Assembly (NCBI RefSeq): GCF_014621695.1
Contig: NZ_CP061281.1
Coordinates: forward strand, 1,426,001-1,490,000
Length of the DNA stretch: 64,000 nt
Reading direction: 5' to 3'
Source: Streptomyces xanthii
GTDB lineage: Bacteria > Actinomycetota > Actinomycetes > Streptomycetales > Streptomycetaceae
Positions 4,842 to 21,702 of the stretch are shown here, piece after piece. The notes under the pieces were generated by a model, which saw nothing but the letters and a program-made list of their open reading frames with translations, was not told the DNA's origin and did no database searches. Position 1 is the first letter of the stretch, and each line of letters begins with the position of its first letter. Position numbers and translations under genes: made by a program.

Positions 4842-6620
4842 GTGCGCCGACGCACCTGGGGAACAGCTGTCCTACTGGCGGCCTGCGCGGGCCTCGCGCC
4901 CGCGACGACCGCCGAGGCCGCCCCGCACAGACCCGAGCCGCTCCCCCTGGAGCGGCTCTTCGACAATCGGGCCGTCAGCGACGACGACCGGCCCGCCGAG
5001 GCCGACTTCGACGGCGAGGGCGGCTCGCTGTCCGCCCAGGACCTGACGGCGGCGGGCTGGACCCCCGGGCGCCGCCTCGGCGTCCAGGGCGCCGAGCTCC
5101 ACTGGCCGCGCACGGCGGGCGACGGCCCCGACAACGTCCGGGCCGACGGCCAGCGCGTCCGGCTGCGGGGCAGCGGGAACTCGCTCGCCTTCCTCGTCGC
5201 CGGGACCGGCGGCGACGCGAGCGGCACGGGCACGGTCCGCTACACGGACGGCTCGCGCTCCCGGTACACGCTCACCGCCCCGGACTGGCGCACCGGCCCG
5301 CTCGCCACGAAGTCCGTCGCGCTCCCCCATCGCAACACGCCGCAGGGGCAGGTCCCCGACCGGACCCGGCTGTACGTGGTCACCGTGCCGGTCCGCGCGG
5401 ACCGGGCCATCGCCTCCGTCGACCTGCCCGGAGCGCCGGACGAGGCCGGCCGCGCGCTGCATGTCTTCGACGTCTCCGTGCGCCGGGCGACGCACGGCTG
5501 GACGGGCACCTGGGCGGCGTCGACCGCCGGGTACACGACGGTCGGCCCGTGGGCGGACCGGACGGTACGGCTCGTCGTGCACACGAGCACGGGCGGCCCC
5601 CGGGTCCGGATCCGGCTCGACAACACCTTCGCGTCGACGCCCGTACGGATCGGCAGCGCGTCGGTCGCCGTGCGCGAGGCCGGGGCCGCGACGCGCGGCG
5701 CGCCCGTCCCGCTCACCTTCCGAGGCGCCTCCGGGACACAACTGCCCGCCGGGGCACAGGCGTTCAGCGACCCGGTCGACTTCGACGTGCCGGCCGACTC
5801 CGACCTCCTCGTCAGCTTCCACCTGCCCGACCCGGTGCTCAGCGCGCCCGTGCACAGCCAGGCGCTCCAGCGGTCGTACGTGAGCGAGCCCGGGGACCAC
5901 GCGACGGACGCCGCCGGCACGGCCTTCACCTCGACGATCTCGTACTGGCCGCTGCTCACCGGGGTCGACGTGGGCGGCGGGCCCGGATCCGTGGTGCTGC
6001 TCGGGGACTCGATCACGGACGGGGTGAAGTCGACCCAGGACGCGAACAGGCGCTGGCCGAACGTGCTGGCGCGGCGGCTGCTCGGGCAGTCGCAGGTGCC
6101 GCGCTACGGGGTGCTGAACCAGGGGATCTCGGCGAACAAGGTCGTCGGGGACCGGTATCCGGGCGACGGGGTGTCCGTGGACACGGGCGGGGTGAGCGCG
6201 CTGCACCGGATCGACCGGGACGTGTTCGCCCAGACCTCGGCGCGGACCGTCGTCGTCTTCCAGGGGATCAACGATCTCCGGTGGGGCGCGAGTGCCGAGC
6301 AGGTCGTGGCGGGGCTGCGCGAGGTCGCCGCGCTGGCGCGGGCGCGGGGGTTGCGGGTGATCGGGGCGACGATCACCCCGTGCGAGGGGGAGGCCCTGTG
6401 CACGGCTGCCGCTGACGCGGGGCGGGTCGAGGTGAACCGGTTCCTGCGCGGGCCCGGCTCGGGGTTCGACGCGGTGCTGGACTTCGACGCGGTGCTGCGG
6501 GATCCGGGGCGGCCGGCTCGGATGCGGGCCGAGTTCGACAGCGGGGATCATCTGCATCCCGGCGATGCGGGGCTCGCTGCGCTGGGCTCCTCGGTCGACC
6601 TGGGCCTTCTCGCGCCGTAG
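4842..6620 (+). CDS. Secreted SGNH/GDSL-family hydrolase
   Basis: 592 residues from GTG 4842, preceded by GGAGGGAG at 4828-4835. The frame is open further upstream, but this start places a clean signal peptide (VRRRTWGTAVLLAACAGLAP, cleavage near AEA-APH) at the N-terminus. The N-terminal half is a beta-rich domain (for example FDVSVRRATHGWTGTW). The C-terminal half is an SGNH esterase: block I GDSITDG with the nucleophilic Ser, block III with GINDLR, and the acid/His pair in DSGDHLHPGDAG. The probable role is extracellular ester or carbohydrate-ester hydrolysis; the substrate cannot be read from sequence. It is followed by a long inverted repeat shared with other gene ends. Confidence 0.85.
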   Translation: MRRRTWGTAVLLAACAGLAPATTAEAAPHRPEPLPLERLFDNRAVSDDDRPAEADFDGEGGSLSAQDLTAAGWTPGRRLGVQGAELHWPRTAGDGPDNVRADGQRVRLRGSGNSLAFLVAGTGGDASGTGTVRYTDGSRSRYTLTAPDWRTGPLATKSVALPHRNTPQGQVPDRTRLYVVTVPVRADRAIASVDLPGAPDEAGRALHVFDVSVRRATHGWTGTWAASTAGYTTVGPWADRTVRLVVHTSTGGPRVRIRLDNTFASTPVRIGSASVAVREAGAATRGAPVPLTFRGASGTQLPAGAQAFSDPVDFDVPADSDLLVSFHLPDPVLSAPVHSQALQRSYVSEPGDHATDAAGTAFTSTISYWPLLTGVDVGGGPGSVVLLGDSITDGVKSTQDANRRWPNVLARRLLGQSQVPRYGVLNQGISANKVVGDRYPGDGVSVDTGGVSALHRIDRDVFAQTSARTVVVFQGINDLRWGASAEQVVAGLREVAALARARGLRVIGATITPCEGEALCTAAADAGRVEVNRFLRGPGSGFDAVLDFDAVLRDPGRPARMRAEFDSGDHLHPGDAGLAALGSSVDLGLLAP

Positions 6621-13737: not shown

Positions 13738-14985
13738 CTATAGGGCGGATCCGTCGCAGCGGCGCACTACGAGCGCCGCGTTGGAGCCCATGAGTCCCCG
13801 GCTGAGGACCAGGGCCGTGCGCAGCTCGGCGGGGCGAGCGCGGGACATCACCAGATCCAGGTCGTGGCAGATGTCGAACACGTTGGGCGTGGGGGGAATC
13901 TGGCCGTGCTCCATGGCGTACACGGCGGCCGCCACGTCCAGCACGGACGCCGCGCAGTAGGCGCGCCCCATGCCGCTCTTGGGGGCCGTGACGGGGACGC
14001 GGGTGCCGTGGGCGCCCAGGGCGTCGGCGAGGGCCAGGGCCTCGGCGCGGTCGGCCTCCGGGACGCCGAGGGCGTCGGCGAACACGACGTCGATCTCCTC
14101 GGGCGCGCAGCCGGCCTCGTCGAGGGCGCCGCGGATCGCCTGCGCGAGGCCTTCTCTGGAGCGCTCCCACCGGGACGCGCCCGTGAAGGTGGCGGCGTGT
14201 CCGGCGACGACGGCGCGCAGCGGCGCTTCGCGCTCGCGGGCGCGGTTCTCCTCCTCCACGACGAGGACGGCGCCGCCCTCGGCGGGCGCGAACCCGCGGG
14301 CCGCCGTGGTGAAGGGCAGATAGGCGCGTTCGGGTTCCTCGGCGGTGCTGAGCTCGGGGTAGCCGAGCTGGCACACCATCGAGTACGGGGCGAGCGGGGC
14401 CTCCGTGGCGCCGACGACCAGGGCCTCGGTGCCGCGCCGCACGGCGCGGGCCGCGTGTGCGACGGCGTCCAGGCCGCCGGCCTCGTCGCTGGCGACGACT
14501 CCGCACGGTCCCTTGAAGCCGCTCCAGATGGAGATCTGGCCGGTGCTGGCCGCGTAGAACCAGGCGATGGACTGGTAGGGGCCGACGAACTTGGAGCCCT
14601 GGCCCCACAGTTTCTGCAGTTCGCGCTGGCCGAACTCGCCGCCGCCGGACCCGGCGGCGGTGAACACGCCGATGGAGTACGGGTCGTCGGGCGCCCCGCG
14701 TCCGATGCCCGCGTCGTCGAGGGCCTGGGCCGCCGCGGCCATGGCGAAGTGGCTGAACCGGTCCGTCTGGACCAGGAACGGCTCCTCGATGTGGTCCTCG
14801 GCGTCGAAGCTGCGGACCTCGCCGCCGACGCGCAGCGGCAGGTTCCCGCAGCCCTCGCGGGTGATCCGGTCCAGGACGAACAGGCCCTCCCGGACGGATT
14901 TCCAGTAGGCGTCCGCGTGCAGTCCGTTGGGGGCGATCACACCGGTGCCGGTGATGACCGCGCGCCGGGCGCGTCGACCGCTCAT
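13738..14985 (-). CDS. Ketosynthase beta / chain length factor (WhiE ORF IV)
   Basis: 415 residues from ATG 14985, which overlaps the KS-alpha stop in ATGA. The thiolase-like fold is complete ([13 protein letters not shown] at the N-terminus, SKGMGRA-type region [14 protein letters not shown] near the C-terminus), but the active-site Cys of KS-alpha is replaced: the equivalent stretch is [11 protein letters not shown] with Glu168. Most chain length factors are described with Gln at this position. The partner His motifs are also altered. It forms a heterodimer with KS-alpha and sets chain length; many family members also decarboxylate malonyl-ACP for priming. Confidence 0.9.
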
Positions 14986-16250
14986 CGTGTCCTCCCGCCT
15001 GGCCCGGCCAGGAGCACCGCGGACTGGAAGCCGCCGAATCCGCTGCCGACGGAGAGCACGTTCCTCAGCTTCCGGGGGCGGGCGGTGCGCGGTACGTAGT
15101 CCAGGTCGCACTCGGGGTCGGGCGTCTCGTAGTTCGCGGTGGGCGGCACCACCTGGTGCTGGAGCGCGAGGACGCAGGCGGCCACCTCGATCGCACCGAT
15201 CGCGCCCAGGGAGTGGCCCACCATGGATTTGATGGAGCTCATCGGGGTGTCGTAGGCGTGGGCGCCCAGCGACAGCTTGACGGCGGCCGTCTCGTGCCGG
15301 TCGTTCTGCCGGGTGCCGGAGCCGTGGGCGTTGACGTAGTCGATCAGCGTGGGGTCGAGCCGGGCCTGGCCGAGGGCGGTGTCGATCGCCCGGGCCATCT
15401 CCCGGCCCTCGCTGGTCAGACCGGTCATGTGGTACGCGTTGCCGTACGTGGCGTAGCCGCTGATCTCGCAGTACACGTGGGCGCCGCGCGCGCGGGCGTG
15501 CCCGGCCTCCTCCAGGACGAGGACCGCCGCTCCCTCCCCCATGACGAAGCCGTTGCGGTCCGCGTCGAAGGGTCTGGAGGCGTGCTCGGGGTCGTCGTTG
15601 TTCGGCGAGGTCGCCCGGATGGCGTCGAAGCACGCCATCGTGATGGGTGAGACCGGGGAGTCGGAGGCGCCCGCGATGCAGACGTCGGCCCGGCCCTCCT
15701 GGACGGTGTGGAAGGCGTAGCCCACCGCGTCGAGTCCGGAGGTGCATCCGGTGGAGACGGTCTGCACGGGGCCCTGCGCGCCGAACTGTTCGGCGACGAC
15801 CGCGGCGAGCGTGCTCGGCGAGAAGGCCCGGTGGAGCTGGGGTTCGGCCGCGCGGTGGTCCACGTCCCAGCGCTTGCCGCGCTCGCTGACGAGGACGTAG
15901 TCGTGCTCCAGGCGGGTGGTCCCGCCGATGGCGCTGCCGAGGGAGACGCCGATCCGCCAGGGGTCCTCGCGGCCGGTGTCGAGTCCGGAGTCGCGTACGG
16001 CCTCGCCGGCGGCGGCGACCGCGAACTGGATGTACCGGTCCGTGTGGTCGCGCACGTCGAGGGGCAGGCCGTGGGCGTCCGGGTCCCAGTCGCACTCGGC
16101 GGCGATCCGCGAGCGCAGGCCCGCCGGGTCGAACAGCGTGATGCCGCGGGTCGCCGTCCGGCCGTTGGAGAGCAGGTCCCAGAACGCCGTGGCGCCGATT
16201 CCCCCGGGCGCCACCACGCCGACGCCGGTGACCGCCACCCGCCGGGTCAC
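14982..16250 (-). CDS. Ketosynthase alpha (WhiE ORF III)
   Basis: 422 residues of a type II PKS ketosynthase. The active-site Cys169 lies in [11 protein letters not shown], the two catalytic His residues in [13 protein letters not shown] and [15 protein letters not shown]. The N-terminus ([15 protein letters not shown]) and C-terminus ([18 protein letters not shown]) are typical. With KS-beta and ACP it forms the minimal synthase that builds the poly-beta-ketone chain of the pigment. It overlaps both neighbours by four bases (ATGA), so cupin, KS-alpha and KS-beta are translationally coupled, giving balanced subunit levels. Confidence 0.93.
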
Positions 16251-16651
16251 CTTATGACCTCACTTGGCTCGGGCTCCTCGGTGTCGACGTGTCCGAGGCG
16301 CGGCTCCGGGGCGAGCGGGCCGAGGTGGAAGACCATGCGGGCCTCCACGTCGCCGACGTTGCGGAAGCGGTGCCGCACGTCGATCGGGATGAGCAGCCCC
16401 TGGTCGGGGCGCAGTTCGTGCGTCTCGCCGTCCAGGTCGACCTCGAGGGCGCCCTGCACGACGTACACGAACTCCTCGGAGTACGGGTGGTAGTGCTCGC
16501 CGATGCGCTCTCCGGGCTGGATCAGGGCGAGGCCCATGAAGCCGCTGGTGGAGCCGACCGTGGCGGGCGTGAGCATGGCCCGCAGGTCACCTCCGCGCCG
16601 GCGGTTGGGCTCGGTCTCGCTCAGGTCCACGATGCGTGGATGCTTGATCAT
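16247..16651 (-). CDS. Cupin-domain protein of the spore-pigment operon (WhiE ORF II)
   Basis: 134 residues with one cupin barrel: motif 1 around [18 protein letters not shown] and motif 2 around [16 protein letters not shown], giving a likely His/Glu metal site (HYH, E, H). Homologues in whiE, sch and cur clusters occupy the same place between ORF I and KS-alpha. The biochemical step is not established to my knowledge; a role in ring formation or oxygenation of the pigment is usually proposed. Its stop overlaps the KS-alpha start in ATGA. Confidence 0.85.
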
Positions 16652-17938: not shown

Positions 17939-18122
17939 CCGGGACAGCGCGGTCGCCATGTGCCGATCGTCGACGCGGGTCCCGGCGTCGCGCGAACCGC
18001 ACGGTCCGGTCGGGTGAAATAGGTGCCCGGTAGGTGCTTCCGACGCGCGAAGTGGTACAGCGCGGCGTGCAATGTGGGCGAAATCCCTCACTCACGTCGC
18101 AGGTGACGCTGGAGGCAGTCAC

Positions 18123-19853
18123 ATGACCCGTTCGCACGAGGCCCCCGAGGCCGTGCAGCACACATCCGTCCTCATCGTCGGCGGCTCCCTCGTGGGCCTG
18201 TCGACCTCGCTGTTCCTGGGGCGTCTCGGCGTCCCGCACATGCTCGTCGAGCGCCATTCGGGCACGTCGATCCACCCGCGCGGGCGCGGCAACAACGTGC
18301 GCACGATGGAGCTGTTCCGGGTGGCCGGGGTGCAGCGGCGCATCGAGGAGGCGGCGTCGGTCCTGGCCGGCAACCACGGCATCCTCCAGACACCGACGCT
18401 GGTGGGGGACGCCGGCGAGTGGCTGTTCAAGGAGATCGACCCCGGGGGCGGGCTCGCCCGCTTCAGCCCGAGCGGCTGGTGCCTGTGCAGCCAGAACGAC
18501 CTGGAGCCGGTGCTGCTCGACAGCGCCCGGGAGCAGGGCGGCGACCTGCGCTACGGCACGGAGCTGATGTCGTTCGAGCAGGACGCCGAGGGGGTGACCG
18601 CTCGGCTCAAGGCGCGGGACACCGGCGAGCACACGACCGTCCGCGCGGACTACCTGGTCGCGGCGGACGGGCCGCGCAGCCCGGTCCGTGAGCACCTCGG
18701 CATCGGGCAGAGCGGCCCGGGCGACCTGTTCCACAACGTGAGCGTCACGTTCACCTCGCGCGCTCTCGCCGATGTCGTGGGCGAGAGGCGCTTCATCGTG
18801 TGCTACCTCACCGACCCGGAGGCGGACGGCGCGCTGCTGCCCGTCGACAACCGCGAGCACTGGGTCTTCCACGCGCCGTGGCACCCCGAACACGGCGAGA
18901 CGCTGGAGGAGTTCACCGACGAGCGGTGCGTCGCGCACATCCGGCGGGCCGTCGGGGTGCCGGACCTCGACGTGGAGATCACCGGCAGGGCCGCGTGGCA
19001 CGCGGCCGAGCGGGTCGCCGAACGGTACGGGGAGCGCCGGGTGTTCCTCGCCGGGGACTCGGCCCACGAGATGTCGCCCACCGGGGCGTTCGGTTCCAAC
19101 ACCGGCATCCAGGACGCGCACAACCTCGCGTGGAAGCTGGCCGCCGTACTGGGCGGCTGGGCCGGGCCCGGCCTGCTGGAGACGTACGACGCGGAGCGCC
19201 GGCCGGTCGCGGAGGCGACGAGCGCGCGGGCGTCCTCGCGCTCGGTCGAGCACAGCCACCCCGGCTACACGCCCGGCCCGGAAGCCGGCGGTGCGGGCGG
19301 TCCCGGCGGCGGCCCCGGCGGCCCTGGCGGCCCTGGTGGCCCGGGTGGCGGTCCCGGTGGCAGGAAGGGCGGGATCCTCAACGTGGCGCTCGCCTACCGC
19401 TATCCGCGCGGCGCGGTCCTCGGCACCGACCCGGCGGCCCCGGTCGTGCCCGACGGCGTACGGCTGGCGGGCGAGCCCGGAACCCGCGCCCCGCACCTGT
19501 GGCTGAACCGCGCCGGGGACCGGATCTCCACCCTCGACCTGTACGAGCGCTCGCTCGTGCTCCTCAGCTCGGAGGACAGCGGCGACGGGACCGACGCCGG
19601 CTGGCACGCGGCGGCGCGGCGCCTCGCGGCGGAGCTGTCCGTCCCCCTCGACGCGTACCGGATCGGCACCGGTCCCGCGGCCGAGCTGACGCCCGCGTCC
19701 GACACGGACTGGGCCGAGGCGCACGGCGTCGGCGGGGGCGGCGCGGTACTGGTCCGTCCGGACGGATTCGTCGCGTGGCGGTCCGAAGGGCCGGTGGCGG
19801 ACCCGGAGCCGGCGCTTCGGGAGGCGCTCACCGCGGTCCTGGCCCGCACCTGA
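18123..19853 (+). CDS. FAD-dependent polyketide hydroxylase (WhiE ORF VIII)
   Basis: 576 residues from ATG 18123, with GGAGG about 8 bases upstream. It is an aromatic hydroxylase of the PheA/TfdB class: Rossmann motif VLIVGGSLVGLSTSLFLG, DG motif AADGPRSPVREHLG and GD motif FLAGDSAHEMSPTGAFG for FAD ribose binding. The C-terminal thioredoxin-like domain (GTRAPHLWLNRAGD and later) is present. Between them, residues about 388-416 form a Gly/Pro-rich collagen-like stretch not typical of the family. It is transcribed away from the pigment operon, as in S. coelicolor whiE, and should add a hydroxyl late in pigment synthesis. Confidence 0.9.
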   Translation: MTRSHEAPEAVQHTSVLIVGGSLVGLSTSLFLGRLGVPHMLVERHSGTSIHPRGRGNNVRTMELFRVAGVQRRIEEAASVLAGNHGILQTPTLVGDAGEWLFKEIDPGGGLARFSPSGWCLCSQNDLEPVLLDSAREQGGDLRYGTELMSFEQDAEGVTARLKARDTGEHTTVRADYLVAADGPRSPVREHLGIGQSGPGDLFHNVSVTFTSRALADVVGERRFIVCYLTDPEADGALLPVDNREHWVFHAPWHPEHGETLEEFTDERCVAHIRRAVGVPDLDVEITGRAAWHAAERVAERYGERRVFLAGDSAHEMSPTGAFGSNTGIQDAHNLAWKLAAVLGGWAGPGLLETYDAERRPVAEATSARASSRSVEHSHPGYTPGPEAGGAGGPGGGPGGPGGPGGPGGGPGGRKGGILNVALAYRYPRGAVLGTDPAAPVVPDGVRLAGEPGTRAPHLWLNRAGDRISTLDLYERSLVLLSSEDSGDGTDAGWHAAARRLAAELSVPLDAYRIGTGPAAELTPASDTDWAEAHGVGGGGAVLVRPDGFVAWRSEGPVADPEPALREALTAVLART

Positions 19854-19866
19854 GGGTCCGTCCGGC

Positions 19867-20535
19867 TCAGACGAGGTGGGCGAAGACGACGAGGTTGTCG
19901 GTGTAGTCCCGCACCGAGCGGTCGTAGTCACCGGCACAGGTGATCAGCCGGACCTGGGCCTGCGGGGTGTCCGCGTACACGCGCTTGTCGGGGAAGTCGT
20001 CCTTCGCGAAGGTCTCGACGCTGTCCACGACGAAGGAGGCGGTCCGCCGGTCGGACCGCTTCACGGTGAACCGGTCGCCCTTCTTCAGGTCGCTGAGGCT
20101 CGCGAACACCGCGGGGGACGTCTTCGTGTCGACGTGCCCGGCGATGATCGCCGTGCCCACCTCGCCCGGTGACACTCCGTCGGCCTGCCAGCCGACCAGG
20201 TTCGTGTCGTCGGCGGGCGGCGGTTCGAGCTGGCCCGTGGGGCCGATGGCGAGGCCGGTGAAGGGGGCGTCGACGCCGATCTTCGGGATGAGGAGCCGCT
20301 TCGGCCGGGCCCGCGGCAGGTGTTTGCCGGTGGCGCGCGGGGCCGCCGAGGCCGGTGCGTGCGTCGCGGAGGAGCCGGTCGTGCCCGAGGGCGCGGGCGG
20401 TTCGTCGTGCCCGCCGAACAGGCTCGTCCCGAGGACGAGGAGGCCGAGGGCCCAGGCGACCCAGACGCCGGGACGGGACCGCTGCCCGGGCGGCGCGGGA
20501 TCGGTTTCAGCGGGGGAAGGCGACCGGGCTGCCAT
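19867..20535 (-). CDS. Class F sortase
   Basis: 222 residues from ATG 20535, which has GAGGTGG upstream; an ATG seven codons earlier lacks this. A basic N-terminus and one membrane segment (VWVAWALGLLVLGTSLFGG, residues 24-42) anchor it outside the cell. A Pro/Ala/Thr linker leads to the sortase barrel: catalytic His134 in IAGHVDT, Cys200 in LITCAGD, and Arg in DRSVRD. No TLXTC-flanking class A features; size and LITCAG fit class F. It would cleave a sorting signal and attach the protein to cell wall. The next gene downstream of its start region encodes a candidate substrate. Confidence 0.88.
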   Translation of the reverse strand: MAARSPSPAETDPAPPGQRSRPGVWVAWALGLLVLGTSLFGGHDEPPAPSGTTGSSATHAPASAAPRATGKHLPRARPKRLLIPKIGVDAPFTGLAIGPTGQLEPPPADDTNLVGWQADGVSPGEVGTAIIAGHVDTKTSPAVFASLSDLKKGDRFTVKRSDRRTASFVVDSVETFAKDDFPDKRVYADTPQAQVRLITCAGDYDRSVRDYTDNLVVFAHLV

Positions 20536-20682
20536 CAGAGACCACCTCGAGAACAAGCGGAAAGGAAGTACGGAAGAGCGGGAGGAACCGGCCCGGAACG
20601 GCCGGGCGGAGATGCGGGAGGGGCCAGCCGGGCCGCCGCGCGAGGTTCAGGCGGCGGCCCCGGCCGCTATGACAGGCACCGG

Positions 20683-21258
20683 TCAGGACAGGTCGGACGC
20701 GCTCTTGCGGCGCATCGCGTACAGTCCGGCCGCGGCGACACCGAGGACCGCCAGGCCGCCGGCCGTGACACCCGGGTTCGCGAGCCCGCCGCCACCGGTG
20801 TGCATGCCGCCGGTCGGCTTCTCGTGGTCGGAGCCGCCCCAGGACTCGTTGCCGCTGTCGTTCTTGTACGTCTCGGGGTCGTACTTCTCCTTGTCCTTGG
20901 TCCAGTCGTCGGGCTTGTCCGCCGTCAGCGCGCCGCCGCCGGTGTGCATCCCGCCGCTCGGCTTGCCGTGCTCCTCGCCGCCGCCCCAGTCCTTGCGCTC
21001 GTCGCCGCCGGAGTCGGAGCCGCCCTTCTCCTTGTCCTTCTGCCAGTCGTCACCCTGGACCGCCGTCAGCGCGCCGCCGCCGGTGTGCATCCCGCCGTGC
21101 GGCTTGCCGTGGTCGCTGTCCTTGTCGTGCTCCTTGCTGTAGGAAGAGTCGTCGTTGTTGTTCCAGTCGCCCCCGGAGGCGGCGAAGGCGCCGGGCGCGG
21201 CGATGGCGAGCGCGGCCGTGGCCGTCGCGGTGGCGAGGAGAATGCGGGCAGAACGCAT
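20683..21258 (-). CDS. Secreted repeat protein with C-terminal anchor, candidate sortase substrate
   Basis: 191 residues. A signal peptide (MRSARILLATATATAALAIA, cleavage near AFA-ASG) is followed by a very hydrophilic Lys/Asp/Gly/Trp-rich region. The sequence GGMHTGGG is repeated three times (residues 55-62, 102-109, 150-157), each preceded by KP[HST]. After the third copy come GLANPGVTAGGLAVLGVAAA (membrane segment) and a basic tail MRRKSASDLS, the architecture of a cell-wall sorting signal. No LPXTG or LAXTG is present; HTG within the repeat is the only Thr-Gly in the right position. Encoded 147 bases upstream of the sortase on the same strand. Confidence 0.82.
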   Translation of the reverse strand: MRSARILLATATATAALAIAAPGAFAASGGDWNNNDDSSYSKEHDKDSDHGKPHGGMHTGGGALTAVQGDDWQKDKEKGGSDSGGDERKDWGGGEEHGKPSGGMHTGGGALTADKPDDWTKDKEKYDPETYKNDSGNESWGGSDHEKPTGGMHTGGGGLANPGVTAGGLAVLGVAAAGLYAMRRKSASDLS

Positions 21259-21702
21259 CGTCGGTTTCCTTCCGCCGTGGCCAGGCCGCTGACCTCATGT
21301 CAGCTGTGTGACCAGCCCCGGCGTGATCACCGTCGGCCAGTCCCGACCCGCGCACCACTCGAGCCGTCCGCCCGGATCACCCTGCCGGGGCCTTGCGCCG
21401 GATCCCGGCCCTGGCCCGGCCCGGCCCAGCCACCCGCCCTGAGCAGGCATTTAACGGCGTGTGAGAAGTCGTACGCACTCTGCGGCGCGTCGCGCTGGAC
21501 AACCCGATCGGCGGCGACACGACTGCCCACGGCCCGTCCCCCGAACGCCCGGCCCGGCATCCCGTTCGCTGACGGTCCGTCCGGGGGGGGGAGGCCGAGG
21601 AGGGGGACACGGAGGGGGCCGGGGAGGGAGCGCGGCTCCATCCGCCTTGAGGGCGGGTCAACTGTGCGCGGACCGTGGCCACTTGGTCCGGAGCGGGCTC
21701 CG
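21259..21702. other. Intergenic region with no supported gene
   Basis: Four hundred bases between the start of the repeat protein and the end of the next minus-strand gene. Open frames here lack Streptomyces codon bias and match nothing recognisable. It holds a run of nine G (21583-21591) and a G-rich tract continuing to about 21640, plus the likely promoter of the sortase-substrate pair next to 21259. Nothing else stands out. Confidence 0.5.

Follow-up and report, generated by a model that had tools for sequence, protein, structure and literature searches.

The published systems closest to the locus described here, known to us through excerpts of the papers cited, begin with the sortases that cut the Thr-Gly bond of an LPXTG signal and pass the threonine to lipid II (PMC5148588, PMC13251363). 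The class E enzyme SrtE1 of Streptomyces acts on LAXTG, a non-canonical signal that stands before a C-terminal helix (PMC5148588). The physiological roles of class F sortases are described as unknown (PMC13251363). In Cutibacterium acnes (C. acnes), SrtF, the only sortase of the species, is reported to recognise LPXTG (PMC7913060, PMC13257024). In Actinoplanes missouriensis, the neighbours of SrtF1 and SrtF4 (AMIS_11010 and AMIS_36440) possess a signal peptide, a helix and a basic tail; no recognised pentapeptide is reported for them in the excerpt of that study, the authors of which suggest that they are possible substrates (PMC13251363). A further case is GlyGly-CTERM: a glycine-containing motif, a helix and a basic tail mark the targets of rhombosortase, and target and enzyme genes are adjacent in most genomes that have a single target (PMC3237569).

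Here we analyse a class F sortase gene and its neighbour within a 64,000-nucleotide stretch of Streptomyces xanthii DNA (the window). The neighbour's protein product resembles substrates of the class E system in carrying a non-canonical signal before its C-terminal helix, in similar bacteria; unlike LAXTG, with Leu at P4 and Ala at P3, the signal has Gly at P4 and, across its family, Met, Val or Ile at P3, and the window enzyme has Asn in the position of the catalytic Arg of class E. The window sortase shares its class by name with C. acnes SrtF but, in contrast to the excerpted description of that enzyme, it would be dedicated to one neighbouring partner with a glycine-rich signal. In its motif, helix and basic tail, and in the adjacency of the two genes, the locus also resembles GlyGly-CTERM; however, rhombosortase is not a sortase but a rhomboid-family protease, described in Gram-negative genera (PMC3237569).

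A class F sortase gene and its upstream partner

The window sortase (Table 1) scores 205.2 bits against the class F model NF033748 (cut-off 166) and 82.4 bits against PF04203. Its start is probably ATG 20535, which has GAGGTG about 10 bases upstream, rather than TTG 20556. His134 and Cys200 are conserved, and Asn214 takes the place of Arg; in an aligned class F set (n=171) the His is present in 166, the Cys in 170, and Asn substitutes for Arg in 165, just before the last strand. No Arg occurs within 16 residues after the Cys in 64 of these 171 enzymes, whereas the class E enzymes of the same genome retain the catalytic Arg. The exchange of the catalytic Arg for Asn in class F has already been published (PMC6998099, citing Malik and Kim 2019). 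A sequence search of solved structures gave four repeat-protein matches that look spurious, plus one weak match to a class C sortase.

Table 1. Features of the sortase locus, in coordinates of the window
Feature	Position	Strand	Basis
Class F sortase, 222 aa from ATG 20535 (ORF reading extends to TTG 20556)	19867..20535	-	NF033748, PF04203, alignment
Proposed class F sortase substrate, 191 aa	20683..21258	-	ORF, NCBIfam/Pfam profiles, sequence
Signal peptide, residues 1-26 (…APGAFA|ASGGDW)	21181..21258	-	cut site by eye
GGMHTGGG copy 1, internal, residues 55-62	21073..21096	-	sequence; also matched by genome DNA pattern
GGMHTGGG copy 2, internal, residues 102-109	20932..20955	-	sequence; also matched by genome DNA pattern
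Terminal GGMHTGGG, residues 150-157, proposed sorting motif	20788..20811	-	sequence
C-terminal membrane segment and RRK tail, residues 163-191	20686..20772	-	hydropathy
Beta-ketoacyl synthase	14982-16250	-	
Cupin	16247-16651	-	
Aromatic-ring hydroxylase	18072-19853	+	

The partner gene lies upstream of the sortase gene on the same strand, with a gap of 126 bases as measured to the longest sortase ORF. Because we found no promoter or terminator consensus in 19700-21700, and because the intergenic fold is not more stable than that of shuffled sequences (z -0.22), we do not claim a terminator between the two genes. The pair is adjoined by type II polyketide-like genes (beta-ketoacyl synthase, cupin and aromatic-ring hydroxylase); a class F sortase of S. 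yeochonensis has been reported within a predicted type II PKS cluster (PMC6998099, seen in excerpt).

The 191-aa partner is a secreted-looking, low-complexity and charged protein, in which a 128-residue glycine-rich chain separates the signal peptide from the proposed terminal cut site. We infer the scissile bond of the terminal copy to be T154-G155, a register taken from the class F matrix described below. The hydrophobic segment starts at residue 163, and the protein ends …LYAMRRKSASDLS, of which RRKSASDLS is the tail. Lysine accounts for about 11% of residues in the mature chain. NCBIfam and Pfam profiles gave no match to a pilin domain, and L[PA]xTG is absent from the protein, so it has no canonical LPXTG or LAXTG anchor. 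The initial annotation is confirmed in its descriptive points: the signal peptide, three GGMHTGGG copies, the C-terminal helix, the basic tail, the lack of LPXTG and the adjoining class F sortase. At least one copy of GGMHTGGG arose in only 1 of 100,000 shuffles of residues 27-191. When G[GA][MVI]HTG with G, S or R as the next residue is written as a DNA pattern, the 8.35-Mb genome gives three matches, all of them in this gene; the reversed pattern, a control, gives none.

Partners of the other sortases in the genome

PF04203 finds 11 sortases in this genome, and the surroundings of all 11 were read. The class F profile recognises seven: the window sortase and those in loci L034-L039. Near each of the seven there is a secreted-looking protein that ends in a helix and a basic tail, with [VM]x[TAG]GxG[GS] ahead of the helix; at the six other loci this motif is AAVHAGGGG, GHVKTGVGG, GPVGAGGGG, GGVRGGLGG, RGVRAGVGG or GAMHTGSGS. 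The RGVRAGVGG locus contains a second protein, with HGVHAGDGG: here (L038; 8378-9055, plus strand, and 5849-6370, minus strand) one class F sortase is accompanied by two motif proteins (GVRAGVGGS, GVHAGDGGS), the GVHAGDGGS protein being in opposite orientation and about 2.5 kb away. The remaining four sortases (L032, L033) are taken as class E; no partner with motif, helix and tail was seen in their surroundings.

An existing NCBIfam model, NF058571 (GVDTG_CTERM; cut-off 29 bits), recognises one of these partners in full, namely the protein in L035, which neighbours another of the seven class F sortases (34.4 bits); that in L039 just misses the cut-off (26.6 bits); the other partners score lower or have no match. 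A six-frame search of the genome with the model passes the same two places, at 37.7 and 30.5 bits, and its matches adjoin class F sortases both in the window genome and in several relatives. The window protein itself scores 19.5 bits, at residues 148-184, which by score places it outside the family, as does the 18.2 bits of an ortholog (L040). By our own reading of the model, as distinct from a published definition, the window protein nevertheless has the expected layout, namely a GVxTG-like motif, a helix and a basic tail beside a class F sortase. The motif is shared in the P4-P1' register; the differences are M-H at P3-P2 and two internal copies that fall outside the 44-position model. Since GVDTG_CTERM recognises partner proteins in this genome, the NCBI curators already have the core of the signal, of which the window motif is probably a variant.

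The motif beside actinobacterial class F sortases

The initial annotation had proposed to look for similar motifs beside class F sortases in actinobacteria. We assembled 165 class F loci: 30 from the order (60 genomes searched), a further 21 from the class (148 genomes, 64 of which have a class F sortase above the model cut-off), and 114 that were the stronger ones among the matches listed for the class, with at most 3 kb fetched on each side. A profile that replaced an over-strict regular expression recovered the sortase in all 165, although one of these picks (L301) looks misframed. The training set of a position matrix (consensus P-x-G-G-[V/P/A]-x-[T/A]-G-x-G-G) was confined to loci of the window genus (44 motif windows); the matrix was then applied to other genera at a threshold of 6 bits. 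Before counting, we dropped ORFs and segments in which third-position GC was not the highest, segments shorter than 70 residues or ending within the sortase domain, and candidates lying beyond 1.5 kb of the sortase; the sortase-neighbour ORF listings also left out any ORF that had more than four hydrophobic stretches.

Outside the training genus, the matrix found the motif at 66 of the 94 class F loci; within that genus it did so at 62 of the 71 loci, a figure that is not independent of the training. In contrast, the motif occurred in just 1 of 97 control segments, which were drawn under the same filters from 800 kb of the same genome set (40 stretches, each 20 kb long and placed at a round coordinate). 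The glycine that follows T/A is invariant (44/44 training and 66/66 test windows). At this threshold 28 of the 94 loci of other genera, and 9 of the 71 in the training genus, show no motif neighbour; the misses include all 20 of the 165 loci that had no candidate segment. Among 48 loci classed as empty by an earlier filter, a less strict scan gave a six-frame match in 17, not all of them convincing. This comparison offers good support for the proposal that the protein carries an unusual sorting motif cleaved within HTG, and we consider that reading of the motif to be probably right. L[PA]xTG was found in none of the 165 candidate ORFs near class F sortases, which is weak evidence by itself because the 66 controls also had none.

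Another observation to emerge from these loci concerns the P1 residue. In a FastTree phylogeny of 135 sortase domains, the partner's P1 is T for 89, A for 35 and G for 11, and it changes 13 times on the tree, versus 40-42 times in the six shuffles listed out of 60. This pattern fits a common descent of enzyme and partner as well as it fits co-adaptation. The window sortase belongs to a clade of seven members (support 99), and the partners of all seven carry G[MV]HTGGG.

Orthologs and copy number

Close sortase relatives were found at 235 loci, of which we took the best 80, in named Streptomyces and Kitasatospora genomes; the nearest are all from Streptomyces apart from one from Kitasatospora. 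An automatic call placed a partner upstream of the sortase at 72 of the 80, and a six-frame scan recovered it at seven of the other eight (one of these, L045, is near a contig end), for a total of 79/80; at L094 neither procedure found a partner. Among 73 proteins (the 72 plus that of the window), the motif is present once in 6, twice in 44, three times in 14, four times in 7 and five times in 2. A further protein, in L118, outside the 73, is also single-copy. Bearing in mind that some orthologs carry just one copy, the internal copies are not indispensable. One of the six single-copy calls (L070, 3400-3900) proved to be a gene that is split over two frames and contains further copies, with one motif copy in a different frame from the rest. 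Each of the best 120 of 714 database relatives has at least two copies, as counted with a loose expression on a list ranked by similarity.

Selection of loci by motif instead of by sortase leads to the same association. The motif DNA pattern is present in 54 of 121 same-genus genomes, and its control matches none of the 121; 30 of the motif-picked loci were examined, and in 27 of these a class F sortase lies inside the 3-kb locus. Of the three exceptions, L361 ends early at a contig edge, and L357 and L369 show no sortase in the 3 kb fetched. L357 (G001, contig 1 near 1419000) encodes a second GGMHTGGG protein, and it is about 24 kb from another motif protein that does have a sortase; it may be an orphan substrate of the same enzyme.

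A second lineage with internal copies

Nine of 130 class F neighbours that have the terminal motif also have an internal one: five are from the window family, and the others are from L267 (a fragment at a contig end), L293, L300 and L305. L300 and L305 represent another actinobacterial family (group f21), for which a related DNA pattern is present in 14 of 22 genomes, with single control matches in 4 of the 22. We examined closely 12 of 40 new loci, and all 12 contain a class F sortase. At nine (nine genomes of one genus) the neighbour consists of a signal peptide, a D/G run, one or two copies of [QR]APSGGVNTG, a terminal copy, a helix and an RR tail; the terminal copy is QAPSGGVDTG in six, and QAPAGGVDTG, QAPSGGIDTG and QAPSGGVNTG in one each. 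Of the other three loci, two have no ORF under our filters and one encodes a protein of a different type with a single copy. We judge this family, its sequences having been read by eye, to be unrelated to the window family outside the signal.

Conservation of the internal copies

The 73 proteins of the window family contain 101 internal copies, at spacings of 12 to 113 residues. The Pro three residues before the motif and the Ala-Leu after the glycines are kept in all 101, Thr in 100 and His in 98; some glycines were fixed by the search expression and therefore are no evidence of conservation, and strongly degraded copies would have escaped that expression. The residue after the third Gly is Ala in 101 of 101 internal copies, versus Ala in 43 and Gly in 30 terminal copies, and this difference means that internal and terminal copies may differ in their jobs. 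It bears upon an explanation that we regard as possible, with somewhat less than an even chance of being correct: that the terminal copy alone is the sorting signal, and the internal copies are uncut docking sites that provide avidity for the sortase. Known sorting signals act beside a membrane helix (PMC5148588, as excerpted), and the second lineage also separates the two kinds of copy, with mostly GVNTGV or GVNTGI internally versus a terminal GVDTGAGG. Yet the scissile Thr-Gly is kept as strictly in the internal copies (the Thr in 100/101), for which docking alone has no obvious need.

In 67 proteins compared at the first internal copy, 12-residue identity is 0.91, whereas the flanks give 0.43 in the ten residues before it and 0.58, 0.24 and 0.15 in successive stretches after it; this comparison is ungapped, so changes in linker length depress the flank figures. 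Furthermore, first internal copies differ by 0.41 synonymous versus 0.039 non-synonymous changes per codon, no internal copy (0/101) has the same DNA as the terminal copy of its own protein, and 88 of the 101 DNA sequences are distinct. The synonymous divergence and the distinct DNA of the copies argue against recent duplication, or a constraint at the DNA level, as the main cause of this conservation. Purifying selection acts strongly on the internal copies; for this reason, and because they recur in a second lineage, they probably have a function.

These data make it unlikely that the internal copies arose simply as repeats expanded in a disordered protein and lack any function. The variable copy number (one to five) and spacing are what such expansion would leave, but the copies stay 91% identical while the linkers diverge, synonymous differences are about ten times commoner than non-synonymous ones, DNA is never shared with the terminal copy, and internal copies also appear in a different substrate family. 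In an open-access library we found no precedent for conserved internal copies of a sorting signal: the one match for multiple or internal LPXTG is, by title, an engineered minicellulosome, the papers listed for GVDTG- or HTGGG-type strings are unrelated by title, and none turned up for non-canonical sorting motifs.

Proposed mechanism

Bearing in mind that the arrangement is conserved, and that a terminal GG[MVI]HTG followed by glycines belongs to a motif found beside the class F sortases of many actinobacteria, we think it likely that the two genes encode a dedicated sortase-substrate pair, in which the class F enzyme cuts the terminal motif while the internal copies serve as recognition sites kept by selection. 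It is very unlikely that the motif is instead meant for a rhombosortase-like intramembrane protease, as in GlyGly-CTERM, or is a plain glycine linker in front of an ordinary membrane anchor: GlyGly-CTERM proteins do likewise combine a motif, a helix and a basic tail (PMC3237569, in excerpt), but a class F sortase adjoins at 79 of 80 ortholog loci picked by sortase and is present at 27 of 30 picked by motif, a similar motif accompanies class F sortases widely, and a linker needs neither the invariant G after T/A nor the frequent P at P7. A pilus-like polymer, in which the Thr of one chain is joined to lysines of the next, is likewise very unlikely: the window protein is lysine-rich, but it matched no pilin domain, and since all nine mature proteins of the second multi-copy lineage are free of lysine, lysine as an acceptor cannot be required by the internal-copy feature that the lineages share, and lysine linkage is disfavoured as a general role.

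In the dedicated-pair model, the 191-aa protein would be exported by Sec and then held by its C-terminal helix; the class F sortase would cut Thr154|Gly155, with G-M-H-T|G occupying P4-P1' in place of L-P-x-T|G, and hand Thr154 to a cell-wall precursor. The outcome would be a 128-residue, apparently disordered chain, rich in D, K, E, H and G, on the wall. On present sequence evidence, the protein is best read as a disordered coat protein that is anchored to the wall by a class F sortase of its own.

Less certainly, the same sortase may also read the internal copies, because each is identical to the terminal copy over P5-P3' and also has Pro at P7 and Leu at P5'. They could then be extra points of cleavage and attachment, or docking sites that strengthen the sortase's hold on the chain. 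Cuts at all three copies would leave segments 33, 47 and 48 residues long; the later two would each start GGGALTA and end GGMHT. GGG is the kind of acceptor that is used in sortase ligation. The initial annotation had raised the idea of several cross-link points per chain; the corresponding proposal, a sortase polyprotein that is cut at internal and terminal T-G bonds to yield several wall peptides per chain, with segments that can be joined head to tail, strikes us as tentative and rather doubtful. A freed middle segment would have a GGG acceptor at its start and a GGMHT donor at its end, and if the proposal is true, the polyprotein would be a lysine-free route to a sortase polymer with chains of varying length.

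The generality of a glycine-rich class F signal has to be weighed against the C. acnes class F sortase, which is described, in the excerpts that we cite, as recognising LPXTG (PMC7913060, PMC13257024). The deletion of all four class F sortases of Actinoplanes missouriensis caused no phenotypic change according to the excerpt of that study (PMC13251363).

Implications

The sorting signal itself is partly catalogued already; the conserved internal copies are the part for which no precedent was found. A predicted signal for most class F sortases, which are common in actinobacteria, offers testable enzyme-substrate pairs, and the seven pairs with different motifs in one genome bear on how sortase specificity is set. 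If the internal copies are cut, this would be a new means of giving one chain several attachment points, and might supply ligases that are independent of LPXTG.
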